Source: a virus
DNA: 50,428 nucleotides
Strand: one strand, 5' to 3'
Virus record (IMG/VR): IMGVR_UViG_3300042517_000864
Location: 1 to 50,428 of that record
Shown here: piece after piece, positions 67 through 50,304 of the stretch
Layout of the letters: every line of letters starts with the position of its first letter
Position numbering within the stretch: position 1 is the first letter of the stretch
Translations under genes and position numbers: made by a program
The notes under the pieces: generated by a model
What the model saw: the letters and a program-made list of their open reading frames with translations, nothing else
What the model was told of the DNA's origin: nothing
Databases searched by the model: none

Positions 67-84
67 GTAGTACACACATACTAC
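67..84. repeat. Early-array palindrome, copy 1
   Basis: An 18-bp dyad, GTAGTA-CACACA-TACTAC, followed by a CCCGGGCG block. The same 18-bp arrangement recurs at 519-536, 812-829 and 1148-1165. The dyad ends 67 bases before the first base of the -10 box at 152, the same offset as in copy 2. No T-tract follows, so it is not an ordinary terminator. It may be an operator or a transcript-boundary hairpin. Confidence 0.85.
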
Positions 85-114
85 TCGCCCGGGCGCCCGA
101 GGCCACATGAAGAA

Positions 115-157
115 CTGTCACAAGGTTGGCCGCGGCGGGCGACCCATGCTCTATGAT
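115..157 (+). promoter_or_regulatory. Early-type promoter, copy 1 (TATGAT)
   Basis: TATGATAAGGGG at 152-163 is a -10-like box whose last base is 25 nt before the ATG at 182. Upstream lies CACATGAAGAACTGTCAC, which is also present in copy 2, with CTGTCA exactly 31 bp before the -10 in both. That spacing is too long for a normal -35, so CTGTCA is more likely a conserved upstream element. The spacing match with the copies at 604 and 900 is the main support. Confidence 0.7.
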
Positions 158-181
158 AAGGGGACACAAGCAAAGAAAACC

Positions 182-286
182 ATGGAAACCCTCGACTTCG
201 CAACCCTCGAACTGCTCAACGCCCTTGAGGCCGACCTTGAGGTGCTTGATTTCGACGCAGACGAGCTGCTCGATGATGAGGCCTGA
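182..286 (+). CDS. Small acidic protein, early array
   Basis: A 34-residue frame, METLDFATLELLNALEADLEVLDFDADELLDDEA. It is leucine-rich and strongly acidic, and could form one or two amphipathic helices. The ATG lies exactly 25 nt after the TATGAT box, the same distance as in the cassettes at 634 and 930, which fixes the start. There is no recognisable domain or signal peptide. Small acidic early phage proteins often bind host enzymes or mimic DNA, but nothing here shows that. It is probably co-transcribed with the gene at 324. Confidence 0.6.
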   Translation: METLDFATLELLNALEADLEVLDFDADELLDDEA

Positions 287-323
287 GGCCACACAGTTCC
301 TAACACAAACTACCTACAAAAAC

Positions 324-518
324 ATGCAATCCGCTAACAACTTCCTCGCTGCATTCCGCCTGCTCGATGAGCACAATGCCATGGCATTTGACTACTGGGA
401 AACTATACTTTTCACCGAAGATGGGGAATGGATCGAGAGAGAAATGACTGAGGCCAACCTCTTCTCTATGCGCATGGACGCATGCTGCGCTGCGGGCGTC
501 GTGCTGTGTGAGGTCTGA
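324..518 (+). CDS. Small unknown protein, early array
   Basis: A 64-residue protein beginning MQSANNFLAAFRLLDEHNAM and ending in a cysteine-containing tail (DACCAAGVVLCEV). The frame stays open upstream to base 126. I take ATG 324 because the upstream part overlaps the gene at 182-286 and has the look of a shadow frame. The sequence suggests helices with several acidic patches; no family was recognised. The TGA at 516-518 directly abuts palindrome copy 2. No strong Shine-Dalgarno is visible, so it may be expressed from the promoter of the preceding gene. Confidence 0.6.
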   Translation: MQSANNFLAAFRLLDEHNAMAFDYWETILFTEDGEWIEREMTEANLFSMRMDACCAAGVVLCEV

Positions 519-536
519 GTAGTAAGGGCGTACTAC
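519..536. repeat. Early-array palindrome, copy 2
   Basis: GTAGTA-AGGGCG-TACTAC, touching the stop codon of the preceding gene. It is followed by CCGGGCGACCCGGGCC and by CACATGAAGAACTGTCAC, shared with copy 1. As in copy 1, 67 bases separate the dyad from the -10 box (604). Confidence 0.85.
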
Positions 537-566
537 CGCCCCGGGCGACCCGGGCCACATGAAGAA

Positions 567-609
567 CTGTCACAGCCCTGCTCTGCAGGGCGCCCTGAGG
601 CCCTACAAT
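567..609 (+). promoter_or_regulatory. Early-type promoter, copy 2 (TACAAT)
   Basis: TACAATAAGGG at 604-614. The -10 ends 25 nt before ATG 634, and CTGTCA (567-572) lies 31 bp upstream of it, exactly as in copy 1. A GC-rich dyad (GCCCTGCTCTGCAGGGC) fills the interval. Confidence 0.7.
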
Positions 610-633
610 AAGGGCATGAAGAACGAAACCACC

Positions 634-804
634 ATGACCCTGACCGAAGCGAACACCGTCTGGACTGCCTGCTACGGCGACGACCTGAACAGCGATGGGT
701 GGGACCGTTACACCAGCGCTCAGCGTCAGCAGGCGATCGATGTCCGCGACGCTCACGCCAACGGAGGTCAGTGGGGCTTCTGGGACATCAGCGACCGCCA
801 CTGA
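634..804 (+). CDS. Small unknown protein, early array
   Basis: A 56-residue protein starting MTLTEANTVWTACYGDDLNS and ending GGQWGFWDISDRH. An in-frame ATG at 616 falls where transcription should begin. I choose 634 because it reproduces the 25-nt distance from the -10 seen in the neighbouring cassettes. It is soluble and tryptophan-rich, with no recognisable domain. It belongs to the series of single-gene cassettes, each with its own promoter and downstream palindrome. Function unknown. Confidence 0.65.
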   Translation: MTLTEANTVWTACYGDDLNSDGWDRYTSAQRQQAIDVRDAHANGGQWGFWDISDRH

Positions 805-811
805 GCCCTCA

Positions 812-829
812 GTAGTACACCCGTACTAC
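812..829. repeat. Early-array palindrome, copy 3
   Basis: GTAGTAC-ACCC-GTACTAC, a 7-bp stem followed by CCGCCCGGCCC. It lies eight bases after the TGA of the preceding gene and 70 bases before the next -10 box. Confidence 0.85.
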
Positions 830-843
830 CCGCCCGGCCCACC

Positions 844-905
844 CTGTGCCAGTAGGCGAAGTGGCACAGCACCCACCCACACGCCCACCCCCATGCCCCT
901 ATAAT
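844..905 (+). promoter_or_regulatory. Early-type promoter, copy 3 (TATAAT) with dyad
   Basis: TATAATAAGGGG at 900-911, with the -10 ending 25 nt before ATG 930. The CTGTCA element of copies 1 and 2 is replaced by a perfect hairpin, CTGTGCCA-N10-TGGCACAG (844-869). Its right arm lies at nearly the same distance from the -10 as CTGTCAC in the other copies. The two forms may be variants of one upstream binding element. Confidence 0.7.
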
Positions 906-929
906 AAGGGGACATTCAACACAAGCCCC

Positions 930-1094
930 ATGACCACTCGCCAAGCCCTCATCCTCCTCGCCACCGTCCTCGCCACCTTCGGCGGCATCGGTGCCTACAA
1001 GGCCGCCTCCGAGCACGCCGCCTATCACGAGTGCATGGCTGAGGCCTTCCCCTCCGCCGCTACCTGTGCCGAGCGTGCTGGCCTCAACGACTGA
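930..1094 (+). CDS. Small membrane protein, early array
   Basis: A 54-residue protein starting MTTRQALILLATVLATFGGI. Residues 6-22 form one hydrophobic segment, so it is probably a single-pass inner-membrane protein or an exported peptide. The rest carries two cysteines (YHECMAEAF and ATCAERAG) that could pair outside the cytoplasm. The start is fixed by the 25-nt spacing from TATAAT. A terminator hairpin follows the stop. Function unknown; small early membrane proteins of phages can act in superinfection exclusion or lysis timing, but no evidence here decides. Confidence 0.65.
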   Translation: MTTRQALILLATVLATFGGIGAYKAASEHAAYHECMAEAFPSAATCAERAGLND

Positions 1095-1112
1095 GGGCCA
1101 CCCTCCCCACCT

Positions 1113-1135
1113 GCCCCCCTCCGTGGGGGCTTTTT
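1113..1135 (+). terminator. Rho-independent terminator ending the early array
   Basis: GCCCCC and GGGGGC form a 6-bp all-GC stem with a six-base loop, immediately followed by TTTTTC. It lies 18 bases after the stop of the membrane protein gene. Confidence 0.85.
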
Positions 1136-1147
1136 CATGGCCTCTCG

Positions 1148-1165
1148 GTAGTACACATGTACTAC
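1148..1165. repeat. Early-array palindrome, copy 4 (orphan)
   Basis: GTAGTAC-ACAT-GTACTAC, then CCCCGGGTGACCC as in the other copies. No TATAAT-like box lies 68-71 bp downstream and no convincing gene follows. This copy seems to be the unoccupied or decayed end of the array. Confidence 0.8.
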
Positions 1166-1808
1166 TGCCCCGGGTGACCCACGCCCACGCATACCCACAC
1201 CCATGGGCATACCCACCACCACACACCCCTGCCCCCCCCCTGTGGGCACACGCCCGCATCGCCGCCTATGGCGCCCTGCACGCCCCCTCCCTGCCCCCTG
1301 CGTGGGTACCACGCACCCCTCCCCCTGCCCTTGTGCAGGGCCACCTGCATGGCCCTAAGCCCAAGCCCAAGCCCACGGCCACACACACATAACGTTATCG
1401 GCATAAACGCATATCGCTATTGATATACACATTCACATTCACACATTCGCATACATCGGCACCGCTAAATGTAAACAATGCCCCTGGCCTTTGGTATCCC
1501 CCCACCGATGGGTCCCTTTTCACCATCGCCCCGGTTTTACCAACGTGGCCGGCCCCGGCGGAAATCTACGTGTCCGAATGCAGGAGTTTATGCCCCCGCC
1601 CATTCTACGAGAAAAAGTTTCAAACCTTTTTCGCGCACTTTCGGAAGGGTCCCTTACGACACCCACCCATTCGCTACACTATGAAAAACGGCAAGCGTAA
1701 TGTCAAACCATAGTCGTATCTCCCAGTCCATATTACGGATTACCTCACCACTGGGGCCCCCCACGTGCTTGCTAATTCACTAAACTAACACCATGGCAGC
1801 AATAACCC
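1166..1808. other. C-rich non-coding stretch
   Basis: Some 640 bases without a convincing gene. 1180-1390 is very C-rich on the + strand, with short iterations (GCATACCCAC twice, AAGCCC three times). 1430-1455 repeats ACATTC units. 1611-1635 holds a GAAAAAG-N8-CTTTTTC hairpin that shares AAAAAGTTTCAAAC with two other places in the window. A 40-codon frame near 1579-1701 (MQEFMPPPILREKVSNLFRA...) reads somewhat like protein but has no ribosome site. The stretch separates the early cassettes from the replication genes and could be an origin or a control region; nothing decides this. Confidence 0.5.
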
Positions 1809-2005: not shown

Positions 2006-3946
2006 ATGGATAACTCCACCAACCTGGTCTCCCAGATAAAGTCCGATTACCTTGCATACAGCATGTCGGTAATTGTCGGCAGGGCCATCCCCTCCTTGAC
2101 TGACGGGCTCAAACCAGCTCAACGTCGAATCCTGACCGCAATGAAATGGCTCGGTCTCCGCCCCGACGGTCGCTACATGAAGAGTGCCCGTGTCGAAGGT
2201 GAGACAATGGGTAAGCTTCACCCCCATTCTGGGGCATATGGAGTCATGGTAACCCTCGCAGCACCCTGGAACAACAACTTACCTTTAATCGATGGCCAGG
2301 GAAACTGGGGCTCATCGGTAGATGGCGCAGCGGCCAGTCGCTACACCGAGTGCAAGCTCTCACCCTTCGCTTGGGATTGCCTACTTACAGACAACGAAAC
2401 CTGGGTAACTACCGATAACTACGACGGGTCCCTGCAAGAACCCACTGAACTCAATGTAAAGATCCCCCTGGTTCTCCTCAACGGGCAAGAAGGTATTGGC
2501 GTGGGCTTCGCTACAAAAATCCCCCCACACTCTCTGAGAGACATTTGCGACGCTGTTTGTAAAGGGTCCCTGCTAACACCCTCATTCCCGACAGGATGTG
2601 ACATTGTCAATGATTCTGGCCTTACCGACTATCAGCGCACCGGTGTGGGCACCCTACGCCTACGCGCTCGTTGCGAAGTTACATCGGAAGGCACAGGCAA
2701 ACGCACCAAACAAACCCTAACTTTTACCAATCTACCTACAAGCACCGATCCCGAAAAAATCGGCCAACAAATCAAAGATGCACTCGACAAAGGATCCATC
2801 TCCGGGGTGTCCGCAGTCAGCGATCAGTCTGATCTCACGGGCGACCGTCTTACGGTTACTCTCAAAACTGGGACCGACATCAGCTTGGCCACTCGCCAAC
2901 TCTACCACTACACTGACCTGGACACTAAATATTCGGCACGGTTGCTGGTTGTGGACGGGTTGCGACCAGTCGAAATGTCTCCAAGTGAGCTTATTACGAG
3001 TTGGACGTCATGGAGACTGGCTCGGCTGGGTGCTAAATTCCGGCATGAGCTAAACGCTTGCGAACTTCGCCTCGAAATTGTTCGGGGTTACCTCAAGGCA
3101 ATCAGTAAAATTGACGCCGTCATCAAGATTATCCGGGCTTCCAAATCTCCCAAAGAAGCCCTAATCGAGCTCGTCTCCAACCGTTCGCTCAAATTTACTG
3201 GGGACCAAGCCCGTGCTATTCTGGAGATGAAACTCCGTGCTCTTACCAATTTAGACTCGGAAGAACTGGCACAGGAGGAGGGGTCCCTTATAGCCAAGCG
3301 TGAAGAACTCGAAGTCCTGATTCGGGATGAGAAAGCACGAAAAACCTACATGCTCAAGGAAATCAAGGCCATTGGTGTCCGCCATGGTGAAGTCCGACGC
3401 TCCTCCCTAATTGATCCGCCCGAAGGCCTTACCGTAGAGAAAGGGTCCCGTCAGCAAGGAGAAACGGTTGCTAAACCCCGGTTCATCAAAATCGATACCA
3501 AGAAAGGTATAGCCGAACAGGCTAAGGGTCCCCGAGGTGCCCTTATCCTCGAAAAGACTGACAAACTCATTACCCTCACCCAAGATGGCACTCTCAAAAA
3601 ATTACCCCCAAACTTCAAGGGTCCCCTTGGCGACGGCTACTCCCCTGTCGTGCTTGCCAAAAAAGAAACCGATGTCAGAGAACGCAAGTACCTGATGGTT
3701 TTCACCCTCGGTGATCAACTCAAAGCGATGATGATCTCCGGCGAAGACCTTACCAAAGTAACATCAAAAGGCAAACAAGCCCTTCCAGAGGGTGCAACCA
3801 TGCTATACTTTGGTGAAGGCTCTTACACAGTTCCTTGGGCATCCTCAAGAAAGAAAAAAGTTGAATTGTTTCCCGTGACCACAAAACAGGGTAAACCCGG
3901 CAGCAAGGGCATCAAGGTTGCCACCATCTCAGAAATCTCCCTCTAG
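2006..3946 (+). CDS. Type IIA DNA topoisomerase, subunit A (GyrA/ParC/T4 gp52-like)
   Basis: 646 residues. The N-terminus carries the breakage-reunion domain: YSMSVIVGRAIPSLTDGLKPAQRR (18-41) is the GyrA/ParC signature. HPHSGAYG, IDGQGNWGSSVDG and SRYTECKLS follow, with the catalytic tyrosine at Y113 preceded by R112. The coiled-coil/tower region follows at about 330-470. A short C-terminal region (about 495-640, with KGPRGALI and LTQDGTLKKLP) resembles part of the GyrA beta-pinwheel. The protein is shorter than GyrA but longer than T4 gp52. It cleaves and rejoins both DNA strands, relieving or resolving topology during replication. The ATPase subunit it needs is not in this window, so it must lie elsewhere or come from the host. 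The gene contains six GGGTCCC heptamers. Confidence 0.93.
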   Translation: MDNSTNLVSQIKSDYLAYSMSVIVGRAIPSLTDGLKPAQRRILTAMKWLGLRPDGRYMKSARVEGETMGKLHPHSGAYGVMVTLAAPWNNNLPLIDGQGNWGSSVDGAAASRYTECKLSPFAWDCLLTDNETWVTTDNYDGSLQEPTELNVKIPLVLLNGQEGIGVGFATKIPPHSLRDICDAVCKGSLLTPSFPTGCDIVNDSGLTDYQRTGVGTLRLRARCEVTSEGTGKRTKQTLTFTNLPTSTDPEKIGQQIKDALDKGSISGVSAVSDQSDLTGDRLTVTLKTGTDISLATRQLYHYTDLDTKYSARLLVVDGLRPVEMSPSELITSWTSWRLARLGAKFRHELNACELRLEIVRGYLKAISKIDAVIKIIRASKSPKEALIELVSNRSLKFTGDQARAILEMKLRALTNLDSEELAQEEGSLIAKREELEVLIRDEKARKTYMLKEIKAIGVRHGEVRRSSLIDPPEGLTVEKGSRQQGETVAKPRFIKIDTKKGIAEQAKGPRGALILEKTDKLITLTQDGTLKKLPPNFKGPLGDGYSPVVLAKKETDVRERKYLMVFTLGDQLKAMMISGEDLTKVTSKGKQALPEGATMLYFGEGSYTVPWASSRKKKVELFPVTTKQGKPGSKGIKVATISEISL

Positions 3947-3948
3947 AC

Positions 3949-4128
3949 ATGGCTCAACACCGCATTTACATCCCCCAGGAACTAATCTGGGACCCTCAAC
4001 CCGACATTACCACCTACGAGCTTGCCTTGTGCATCCCCTTGTTTACATCTCGAGGCCGTCTCCATCAGTTCTACACCCAACTACCCCCGGAGGCCCAACG
4101 CCATTGGCAACGGGTAAAATCGCAATAA
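3949..4128 (+). CDS. Small unknown protein downstream of the topoisomerase gene
   Basis: A 59-residue frame, MAQHRIYIPQELIWDPQPDI..., ending in QRHWQRVKSQ. It starts three bases after the topoisomerase stop, which argues for translational coupling. The composition looks protein-like: conserved-looking aromatic and proline residues and a basic C-terminus. No family was recognised. A GGGTAAAA octamer (4112-4119) lies across its last codons. Confidence 0.6.
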   Translation: MAQHRIYIPQELIWDPQPDITTYELALCIPLFTSRGRLHQFYTQLPPEAQRHWQRVKSQ

Positions 4129-5558: not shown

Positions 5559-5793
5559 TCACCTTATTGCAAAGGTGGGGATTGGCATGGTTGACACGGT
5601 GGAACGCTATTACCGAAAATACCAAGTAAAGCCCAATGAGGCAAACGCTAAGACTTACTGCCTCTGGCGTCTTCGCCTCCACCGTCGTCTAAAAAACGAT
5701 AGGTCCCTCCTAGAAGCAATCGACGAGGCTCGCAACTTAGGGCTTTACGACGAGGATCCTGGAAAAACTTGTTGGGAACTCTCTTTTTCCTAG
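5521..5793 (+). CDS. Small unknown basic protein
   Basis: The frame is open from ATG 5461 but overlaps the previous gene by about 100 bases from there. I prefer GTG 5521, giving 90 residues beginning (V)RKPHSHALDPVDHLIAKVGI; GTG 5575 or ATG 5587 are alternatives. The body is helical and basic (YYRKYQVKPNEANAKTYCLW, RLRLHRRLKNDRSLLEAIDE). Its stop codon TAG overlaps the GGGTAAAA motif. Function unknown. Confidence 0.55.
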   Translation: MRKPHSHALDPVDHLIAKVGIGMVDTVERYYRKYQVKPNEANAKTYCLWRLRLHRRLKNDRSLLEAIDEARNLGLYDEDPGKTCWELSFS

Positions 5794-5824: not shown

Positions 5825-6814
5825 ATGATCCCTAGAACCGTTCTAATGGCACAGGAGGTGGTCGCACAGCTCACCTCTCCACAACTCGACGAGTATGGCA
5901 ACATCATCCTCAACGGTTACCTTAAGGTAGTTCCTAACACTGTAAACAAAAAAGCATGGCAGTATAAGGAAACAACCACCGCGCCAGTAAATCTGCCCTC
6001 CCTCACTGTAGTACGTCCTGCCATTAAAGGTTGGACTACCAACTACTACGAGTACTACACCCAACTTGCCCCCAACGCCTACAGCCAGGTTCCCGGCAAC
6101 CCCACAATGTTCAAGTATGGGGTGCATTCTTTCACTGCCGCCTCAGGCCCCATTACCTCTCTTCAGGGGCTTCAAGGAGGTAGCGGATACACGGTAGGCC
6201 CTCACCTTGGCGTCCCTGCTGTTGGCGGATCCGGCACCGGCGCTACTCTCGACGTCACCGTTGGAGCAGGAGGAGTAGTCGTCACCGCAACCATCTCCAA
6301 CCCCGGAACAGGTTATCAAGAAGGAGACGGCCTCACCGTAACCACCCTGGGTAGTGGGACAGGTTTCTCCGTGTTTGTGGGACCTATTGCCGCACCAATT
6401 ACAGCAATCGGTGTGATTTCTCCCGGATCCGGGTTCACATCTGGCACCTACACGGGCGTGGTCACCACTTCGAGCGATGCGGGAACTGGTGCTACCCTGG
6501 ACATCGTAGTTGATGCCACCGGTCAAGTCATCAGCGCGGTCCTCAATGCGCCAGGCACCGGTTACACTGTAGGCGCTGTTCTGACTCCCACCGGCATTGG
6601 CCCCGGTGTAGGATCCAGTGTGAGTGTAACATCGGTCGGCGTGGCGAACCCAGCCGGTGAGTCCAAATGGGCTCAACCTCCCGCTCGTTACAACCAGCAG
6701 CAAGTCTCCAACATTACTCCTCCCCAGAACGTCAATAACCCTGCCGTCATCCAGTACTCCTTTGTATACCCTGTGGCAGACAACCCAGTTGCCCCTCCCA
6801 TAGACATTCTCTGA
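5825..6814 (+). CDS. Probable virion protein with glycine-rich repeats
   Basis: 329 residues. The N-terminal 110 residues look globular (MAQEVVAQLTSPQLDEYGNI...). Residues about 110-275 hold at least two repeats of the form GTGATLD-V-V-GxVV-A-ISNPGTGY-GD-LTV, a pattern common in phage structural proteins and probably beta-rich. The same pattern occurs inside the tail sheath of this phage (about residues 842-942). It ends in a proline-rich tail. The start may be ATG 5825 or ATG 5846 (MAQEVV...). A structural role is inferred from the repeats; its place beside the polymerase gene is odd for a virion protein. Confidence 0.7.
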   Translation: MIPRTVLMAQEVVAQLTSPQLDEYGNIILNGYLKVVPNTVNKKAWQYKETTTAPVNLPSLTVVRPAIKGWTTNYYEYYTQLAPNAYSQVPGNPTMFKYGVHSFTAASGPITSLQGLQGGSGYTVGPHLGVPAVGGSGTGATLDVTVGAGGVVVTATISNPGTGYQEGDGLTVTTLGSGTGFSVFVGPIAAPITAIGVISPGSGFTSGTYTGVVTTSSDAGTGATLDIVVDATGQVISAVLNAPGTGYTVGAVLTPTGIGPGVGSSVSVTSVGVANPAGESKWAQPPARYNQQQVSNITPPQNVNNPAVIQYSFVYPVADNPVAPPIDIL

Positions 6815-16118: not shown

Positions 16119-16751
16119 ATGGGGATCTATTACACCTACGCTTATCTCCGGAAGGACGGCACTCCTTATTATATAGGTAAGGGGTGTGGAAAACGATTCC
16201 AAGTCTCAGGGGGGAGAATCATTTCTCCTCCTGCAGACCCTTCCCGGATTATTATCCTAAAACAGAATCTTTCTGAACAAGAGGCATTTCGGCATGAGAT
16301 CTATATGATCGCCGTATTAGGTAGAAAAGACCTTGGCACTGGAATCCTTCGAAACCAAACTAATGGGGGAGATGGTGCATCAGGGTATGTCCGAAACCCT
16401 GAACTCCGTGAAAAAGATCGTCAAAACAAGATTAAATACAACCCCTGTAAAGGAAATCGCCGTTGGCACAACACAACCCTGGGCAAAGAGTGCCTATCGC
16501 AAGAATGCCCTGGCGAAGGTTGGATGGCAGGAAGACTCCCAAGTGTTGCTAAAACGCTGAGGAGCAACAGGAAAAAACAGGAGCAAGAAGGCAGGAACCC
16601 CAGGGTCGGATCTGTATGTTCTGAAGAAACCAAGTCAAAAATAAAAACATCGAAACTGGGTAAAAAAGCATTCGTTAACCAAGAAGGAGTGGTTGTCTTC
16701 AGGGAAGACGCTCCTGGACCGGAATGGCAACGGGGGAGGAAGTGGAAGTAG
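16119..16751 (+). CDS. GIY-YIG homing endonuclease
   Basis: 210 residues. The N-terminus GIYYTYAYLRKDGTPYYIGKG is the GIY...YIG core; the family's arginine and glutamate follow in KRFQVSG and EAFRHEIYMI. The C-terminal part has a W-HN-T-LGKECLSQECPGEGWMAGR unit like the repeats in the gene at 17441, then a CSEETKSKIKTSKLGKKA stretch typical of the NUMOD3-type DNA-binding helices of such enzymes. It would cut a target in endonuclease-free relatives so that the gene is copied by repair. It sits just after the sheath gene, separating it from the gene at 16754. A GGGTAAAA at 16658-16665 lies within it. Confidence 0.88.
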   Translation: MGIYYTYAYLRKDGTPYYIGKGCGKRFQVSGGRIISPPADPSRIIILKQNLSEQEAFRHEIYMIAVLGRKDLGTGILRNQTNGGDGASGYVRNPELREKDRQNKIKYNPCKGNRRWHNTTLGKECLSQECPGEGWMAGRLPSVAKTLRSNRKKQEQEGRNPRVGSVCSEETKSKIKTSKLGKKAFVNQEGVVVFREDAPGPEWQRGRKWK

Positions 16752-49692: not shown

Positions 49693-50304
49693 ATGCAAAC
49701 CTACAAAGCTACTAATACCAAGACCGGGAAGTTTTACATTGGGAGCACCCGTAACTTTGAAAAACGTAAAGCAGAGCATCTTCGGTCCAAAGCAAACCTA
49801 CCTTTTCAAAATGCTTTGCGTAAATGCCCTGAGGACTTCGCATGGGAAGTTTGGAGTGACGACTGCAATGAGCCCATCTTAGAGCAAGCACTTTTAGATA
49901 TGTGGGTAGGGAAAAAGTGCTGCTATAATATAAACCCCTCAGCTAAACATCCTCCTTCCCCGGAAGGACGGGTTGATACTGAGGAAACTAAGAAACGACG
50001 GTCGAGGGCTCAGATAGGGAAGAAGCGCTCTCCGGAGACCATAGAAAAACTAAAAGTAATAATGAGAAATAGGCCCCTCCCCCAGGGCCTTGTAGATATG
50101 CATATAAACCCAAAAACGGGAAAAAGTCACCCTCGGTCCAGACCCATTGTCCTCATAAACGTAGAAACAAAGGAAGAAGAAGAGTTTGAATGCGTAGCCG
50201 ACGCAGCCCGTAAATACGGACTAAACGACGGCCATCTATGCGCCACGGCGGCAGGAAAAAGGAAGAAACACAAAGGGTTTAGGGCACGATACCTTGACGG
50301 GTAA
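49693..50304 (+). CDS. GIY-YIG homing endonuclease
   Basis: 203 residues. MQTYKATNTKTGKFYIGSTR-NFEKRKAEHL is the GIY-YIG core (YIGST form), with PILEQALLDMWVGKKCCYNI carrying the glutamate segment. EETKKRRSRAQIGKKRSPET is a NUMOD3-like basic helix. The end, RPIVLINVETKEEEEFECVA-DAARKYGLNDGHLCATAAGK, is a NUMOD1-like DNA-binding module. It lies between two unknown small genes. Its TAA is embedded in the next GGGTAAAA (GAC-GGG-TAA). Confidence 0.88.
   Translation: MQTYKATNTKTGKFYIGSTRNFEKRKAEHLRSKANLPFQNALRKCPEDFAWEVWSDDCNEPILEQALLDMWVGKKCCYNINPSAKHPPSPEGRVDTEETKKRRSRAQIGKKRSPETIEKLKVIMRNRPLPQGLVDMHINPKTGKSHPRSRPIVLINVETKEEEEFECVADAARKYGLNDGHLCATAAGKRKKHKGFRARYLDG

Follow-up and report, generated by a model that had tools for sequence, protein, structure and literature searches.

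Small genes that are exchanged between related viruses around a repeated regulatory element have been described in T4-type phages, in which the promoter-early stem-loops (PeSLs) place an inverted repeat and a promoter between small open reading frames (ORFs) and the genes lying between copies are shuffled; these elements are termed 'mobile regulatory cassettes', and the haloarchaeal virus HGTV-1 carries an inverted repeat with a TATA motif (PMC4503421, PMC3950731). The use of host master regulators by phages is also established, in that the temperate phage GIL01 uses the LexA of its host (PMC4551915, PMC6182141) and other phages use host CtrA, in what has been called 'lytic deferment' (PMC9437464). 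The cyanobacterial LexA box is RGTACNNNDGTWCB or AGTACWNWTGTACT, and AGTACACATGTACT is tabulated upstream of recA in Prochlorococcus MED4 (PMC3091678), while an inducible LexA SOS response is present in picocyanobacteria (PMC3744912).

The stretch of DNA analyzed here (the window) is the entire IMG/VR record IMGVR_UViG_3300042517_000864, 50,428 bp long, classed as linear and probably a fragment of a phage genome. It encodes a topoisomerase II subunit, a DNA polymerase, a tail sheath, a portal, a head protease, a major head protein and a terminase, together with two homing-endonuclease-like genes (16119-16751 and 49693-50304; PHROG 314 matches). No nucleotide match of the window to deposited phages, near or distant, was found. 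The DNA polymerase has 57.6% identity to that of Synechococcus phage S-CBWM1 and 37% to that of S-TIM5, and the phage is therefore a cyanomyovirus of the S-CBWM1/S-TIM5 kind; judged from its sequence it is Aokuangvirus-like and related to S-CBWM1 (Aokuangvirus), the nearest cultured relative that we found.

The first 1.2 kb of the window resemble the PeSL and HGTV-1 arrays in that a repeated inverted repeat with a promoter lies among small ORFs and the genes are shuffled. Many copies of the repeat and promoter separate small ORFs in a hyperplastic region, and in related phages the shuffling junctions fall at the elements. The array differs from the PeSLs in belonging to another phage lineage, in having two operators per unit and several operator types in one genome, in an outer repeat that fits the host LexA box, and in that the PeSL stem-loop is capable of termination whereas the palindrome of the window has a weak stem and no T run. 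We suggest that the array works like a PeSL by analogy, and we do not file it as one. With GIL01 and the phages that use CtrA it shares sites for a host master regulator in phage promoter regions, which here are candidates read from sequence. Unlike GIL01, the window and its relatives have no detected integrase or CI-like repressor (neither an integrase nor an S24-type repressor, as expected of a temperate LexA/CI-type switch, was found in nine records, mostly fragments), and the boxes accompany each accessory cassette rather than one lysogeny switch. We came upon no account, in the literature searched, of a lytic-type cyanophage with LexA boxes at its cassettes, which is weak evidence, and to our knowledge phage use of LexA is confined to temperate elements.

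The features of the array and of its right-hand neighbor are listed below in window coordinates, where G006 (IMGVR_UViG_3300042860_002944) and G075 (IMGVR_UViG_3300034021_001440) are two related records and ranks refer to the scan of the 50 kb with a host LexA matrix built blind to the phages.

67..84, no strand: distal palindrome 1, GTAGTACACACATACTAC, LexA-box-like, rank 5
88..93, no strand: CCCGGG, +3 from palindrome 1
109..122, plus strand: proximal element GAAGAACTGTCACA, half of the proximal dyad
152..157, plus strand: -10-like TATGAT of cassette 1
182..286, plus strand: cassette 1 gene 1, 34 aa, homologue of the ELEADLGCDLDVLDFNPDEDLDE genes in G006 and G075
324..518, plus strand: cassette 1 gene 2, 64 aa, dissimilar to the gene at the same position in G006 and G075
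519..536, no strand: distal palindrome 2, GTAGTAAGGGCGTACTAC, rank 8, the weakest LexA match
540..545, no strand: CCCGGG, +3 from palindrome 2
561..574, plus strand: proximal element GAAGAACTGTCACA
604..609, plus strand: -10-like TACAAT of cassette 2
634..804, plus strand: cassette 2 gene, start at 634 by geometry, or at 616
812..829, no strand: distal palindrome 3, GTAGTACACCCGTACTAC, rank 2
833..838, no strand: CCCGGC, +3 from palindrome 3
845..868, no strand: proximal dyad TGTGCCA-N10-TGGCACA, of a type also present in G006 and G075
900..905, plus strand: -10-like TATAAT of cassette 3
930..1094, plus strand: cassette 3 gene, 54 aa, with a hydrophobic stretch at the N-terminus
1113..1135, plus strand: hairpin resembling a canonical intrinsic terminator, with T run, between the last cassette gene and palindrome 4
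1148..1165, no strand: distal palindrome 4 at the array end, GTAGTACACATGTACTAC, core AGTACACATGTACT, rank 1
1169..1174, no strand: CCCGGG, +3 from palindrome 4 by direct reading
2006..3946, plus strand: DNA topoisomerase II subunit gene, the conserved right-hand neighbor of the array

Four 18-bp palindromes do lie between tiny genes, as the original prediction had stated, with 1, 1, 0 and 0 mismatches to GTAGTACN4GTACTAC in the order listed, and no further copy is found elsewhere in the 50,428-bp window. The count of the bare palindrome is only mildly unusual (at ≤3 mismatches, shuffled sequences give a mean of 0.97 matches and 4 of 100 reach four); all four copies fall inside 1.1 kb, are intergenic and are embedded in repeats of 43-56 nt. 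The units have a common order, in which the palindrome (the outer dyad) starts straight after the stop codon of the preceding gene and is followed by three bases, CCCGG, a proximal dyad, a promoter-like -10 and the ATG of a tiny gene. The CCCGG is at +3 in 12 of 13 promoter units (11 as scored, since the start of G075_278, at +4, was set one base early) and also stands behind the last copies of the arrays. Proximal dyads in the window, G006 and G075 are either TGTGCCA-N10-TGGCACA or a TGTTAC-type variant. The spacings claimed for the window are borne out, with 67, 67 and 70 nt from palindrome to -10 in copies 1, 2 and 3, 31 nt from CTGTCA to the -10 in copies 1 and 2, and 24 intervening nt from the -10 to the ATG in copies 1-3 when the start of copy 2 is taken as 634. 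A geometry common to all units is another matter: over the 13 promoter units (window, G006 and G075) the distance that separates palindrome and -10 is constrained and not fixed, spanning 53-71 nt with values of 53 (a single outlier), 59-62 or 67-71 nt, and the two main classes largely track the two kinds of proximal dyad. Helical phasing of these gaps is suggestive only (Rayleigh p 0.035-0.086 for periods of 10-11, with non-independent units). A generic sigma-70 scan did not pick up the three window promoters, whose -35 boxes are weak or absent, and the promoters of the relatives' units look better than those of the window. Location and promoter type suggest that the cassette genes are expressed early. 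Their proteins have no Pfam matches and at most weak or unknown-function matches to PHROGs, and the 34-aa product of cassette 1 gene 1 matches neither.

Because the array is truncated by the left end of the record, it cannot be followed leftward in the window. The further copies that had been expected are present in the relatives: G006 has nine within 3.6 kb ahead of the same topoisomerase gene, and G075 has four, with a core of AGTAC, GGTAC or AGAAC. A scan of viral contigs for the bare palindrome gave 119 matches, mostly single and probably due to chance, and the more specific pattern of palindrome plus CCCGGG found G075. In the window, G006 and G075 alike an extra palindrome follows the final gene with no cassette promoter behind it. 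The relative G008 (IMGVR_UViG_3300032319_000930) shares this layout, its dyads being CTGATAC-N4-GTATCAG and GTCAGT-N6-ACTGAC, and in the units of further relatives AGGGCGG / GGTACGG dyads abut the -35. S-CBWM1 resembles the window in having repeated dyad-promoter units, GGGCGGTAAACCGCCC-TTTACA, and has no LexA-like boxes in the 97 kb scanned. From the spread of these units over varied relatives and S-CBWM1 we conclude that dyad-promoter repeats are general in this phage group and that the outer LexA-like dyad comes in addition in some of its members.

The prediction of exchangeable cassettes with a common control unit is upheld by the comparison of relatives, whose sequences show cassette turnover at the units, with genes gained, lost and swapped exactly between them. 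The comparison of G006 with G075 shows homology of 80-83% over one conserved cassette as far as the palindrome and CCCGG, a break over an unrelated gene and renewed homology just ahead of the next palindrome, so that the swapped gene is bounded by two palindromes and lies between two conserved cassettes. The second gene of the ELEADLGCDLDV cassette is different in each of three phages (the window, G006 and G075). Three close relatives, L355, L358 and L363, have topoisomerase genes that are 97-98% identical, and at one spot L355 has no cassette, L358 has one of 623 bp and L363 one of 541 bp, the content of the last differing from that of L358 beyond a shared gene start. The alignments of the L355 and L358 flanks overlap by ~48 bp, corresponding to the operator unit, and such an overlap would be the expected trace of recombination between repeats, with the caution that the units resemble each other and alignments enter them even if the crossover lies elsewhere in the unit. 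A gene ending in QSYDLLWELQDAGWNGGC is the second gene of its cassette in G006, the first gene under another operator in L355, and missing in L358. The same genes with unrelated spacers, named in advance as a finding that would speak against shared control units, do occur in some cases (for the QSYDLLWELQDAGW gene of L355 and for a gene of G008 whose product resembles a secreted protein), and genes and control units therefore reassort rather than forming fixed pairs. A recombination seam had also been suggested, and this is supported for the unit as a repeated block rather than for the palindrome alone.

The outer dyad and the cyanobacterial LexA box are alike in half-site, 4-nt spacer and symmetry, and the phage dyad differs in its serial repetition, its greater symmetry and a less strict spacer end. 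The core AGTACACATGTACT of palindrome 4 is identical over 14 bp to the LexA box of Prochlorococcus MED4 recA. The lexA and recA promoters of 61 genomes (Cyanobiaceae, the family of a Cyanobium genome) yielded 58 boxes, and the matrix was made from distinct host boxes only; it represents Cyanobiaceae as a family. The palindromes take ranks 1-9 in G006 (12 kb), 1-4 in G075 (6 kb), 1-3 in G008 (18.7 kb) and 1, 2, 5 and 8 in the window (50 kb), against a background, measured over 1.12 Mb from other relatives, of 0.35 sites per 10 kb at a score of ≥10. The probability that random dyads with 7-bp arms attain means as high as those observed is ~0.0005-0.001, which taken alone is moderate evidence because several host regulators could have been tried. 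Of 20 spacers, 14 follow the host pattern where 19% would be expected to, by a rule picked after looking. In the control relatives, clustered matches occur at just two loci, L344, whose boxes are at unrelated positions and look like chance, and L376 (IMGVR_UViG_3300044608_001820). In L376, with a topoisomerase only 46% identical, LexA-like boxes are found at ~7 of 11 units, most of them followed at once by a proximal dyad of a third type, GGACACT-N6-AGTGTCC, and then by a promoter; this array layout was a prediction of the host LexA matrix, borne out in a distant phage. What is new here is that a blind host-SOS matrix picks out the array palindromes in four phages and predicted those of a fifth, L376. 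Even between distant phages the outer motif does not leave LexA space, and it is the proximal dyads that vary by phage, as expected if a conserved host protein reads the former and a phage protein the latter. Of the dedicated regulator originally proposed, the part that survives is the proximal operator, which varies between phages as a site for a phage-specific regulator should, while the outer palindrome fits the host LexA/SOS box instead.

Several observations count against LexA. The palindromes fit the lexA and recA boxes of the host family, but copy 2 of the window does so most weakly and scores poorly. With 51-71 nt between it and the -10, the box stands upstream of the promoter, unlike that of a classical LexA repressor, which overlies it (the host recA boxes lie ~130-250 nt upstream of the matched gene start), and many spacers end in C where those of the host boxes mostly end in T, the recA boxes reading A..C on the opposite strand. 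We also count against it the greater symmetry of the phage palindromes, the symmetric outer-pair changes in single copies, which a hairpin would explain too, and the lack of LexA-like boxes in the scanned part of S-CBWM1.

We propose, at roughly even odds, that the locus is made up of exchangeable, PeSL-like regulatory cassettes with a candidate host-LexA-type box as outer operator, the window region being the right end of an array of mini-cassettes with one or two tiny genes each. Each cassette would stand behind one unit made up of outer dyad, CCCGG at +3, proximal dyad, promoter and ATG, and homologous recombination between these short repeated units would add, remove and swap the intervening genes. 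We take the outer dyad to be most likely the target of a LexA-type dimer, above all of the host SOS repressor LexA, and the phage-variable proximal dyad is most likely read by a phage-specific regulator. LexA at the outer site would couple the expression of the cassettes, or the insulation between them, to the DNA-damage state of the host. The center of the box is ~70 to 90 bp upstream of the likely transcription start, too far for simple steric repression, and hence we consider that LexA might act from upstream, via looping, or as a roadblock to read-through from the preceding cassette. A roadblock would suit a box that comes straight after stop codons and an array that ends in an extra copy, and this idea is speculative. 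Tentatively, and with the odds somewhat against so broad a statement, a group of lytic-type picocyanobacterial myoviruses may have host LexA boxes at each accessory cassette, new cassettes entering this circuit through recombination at the unit they share, plus a second, phage-specific operator.

The outer dyad could instead be the operator of a phage-encoded dimeric regulator that prefers GTAC half-sites and is perhaps descended from LexA, with host LexA playing no part. Several copies per genome, outer triplets that drift between phages and the phage-specific look of the other operators would all suit such a protein. We nevertheless hold it to be rather unlikely: the LexA DNA-binding domain (PF01726) is absent in five phage records and the S24 peptidase (PF00717) in nine including the complete S-CBWM1, most of these records being fragments, and the motif remains within host LexA space even in the distant L376 though the proximal operators change. 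NtcA does not fit either, as the consensus of the NtcA box is GTA-N8-TAC and direct reading of the palindrome gives GTA-N6-TAC, N9 or N12, never N8. That the resemblance to LexA boxes is coincidental, the palindromes being neutral leftovers of unit duplication, is most improbable; the copies are indeed related by descent and hence not independent, but the core is conserved while the spacers are randomized across phages with 46-78% topoisomerase identity, and the blind-scan ranks and background controls oppose it.

The position of the palindromes directly after stop codons, their number (cassettes plus one) and the co-variation of paired positions (13 two-sided changes against 3.7 in shuffles, none of 500 shuffles being as high) would suit an RNA hairpin that terminates or processes cassette transcripts at the 3' end, as proposed for the PeSL stem-loops. 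Co-variation of pairs is, however, expected of a dimer site as well as of a hairpin, no T run follows the palindrome, most folding energies do not stand out (z mostly > -2), the near-invariance of the innermost TAC/GTA pairs is not something that a hairpin needs, and a canonical terminator at 1113-1135 stands just ahead of copy 4; such a hairpin thus appears improbable, and a strong intrinsic terminator is rejected given the weak stems, the lack of a T run and the canonical terminator elsewhere. Rfam gave nothing convincing on the array or on the region before the topoisomerase gene. The exact switching of gene content between units raises the further idea that palindrome and CCCGG are the site of a dedicated recombinase, like integron attC, with regulation secondary. 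Here the tyrosine recombinase/integrase that characterizes integrons (PF00589) is absent in nine phage records, one a complete genome and most of them fragments, and L355, L358 and L363 show equal turnover with a quite different operator, so that repeated homology suffices; we regard a recombinase site as very unlikely.

A standing question is where phage 'ORFan' genes originate and how they can be acquired without disrupting regulation. This lineage shows recent gains and losses of cassettes with control-unit edges, and host LexA is a testable candidate for the regulator that lets any new gene fit in. If the proposed LexA reading is true, a lytic phage senses the SOS state of its host in its accessory genes, and a whole fast-changing gene set is wired to the host DNA-damage regulator, with the proximal operator as the lineage's own control.

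A non-coding element before the topoisomerase gene is kept in five records as GGGTCCCTT ... GTGCAGGT ... CCCCC.CCC (window ~1505-1610; L155 9636-9720; L321 1597-1690; L012 5530-5630); it has no convincing Rfam match and is perhaps an unclassified structured RNA. In L328 (G002) the topoisomerase gene is preceded by ~900 bp of mostly non-coding DNA (3180-4100) dense in (G)GTCGGG / TCGGGGA, unlike the other relatives. A row of TAGTACATTTGTA-type palindromes, also LexA-box-like, lies at a pitch of ~30 bp in non-coding DNA of an unrelated phage (L095 5140-5620 and L104; G083, G084) and could be iterons or an operator array. S-CBWM1 (L164) has a repeated AGATGTGAAAGATT...CTGTCCCATGG at 6364, 6453, 36613, 42316 and 45658, in the structural-gene half, which is perhaps a late promoter. 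In the window, GGGTCCC occurs 12 times against 6.8 expected, and GGGTAAA(A) is the most over-represented 7-mer among those tested (22 against 11.9 expected). Ten of its copies are on the plus strand at 5793, 10009, 19735, 25335, 33153, 35826, 36940, 42366, 46697 and 50299; nine of these precede ORF starts of the replication and structural part by 30-40 nt, the tenth lies ahead of an ATG where the record ends, and a stop codon immediately precedes several of the copies. This motif is possibly a phage-specific middle or late promoter element.
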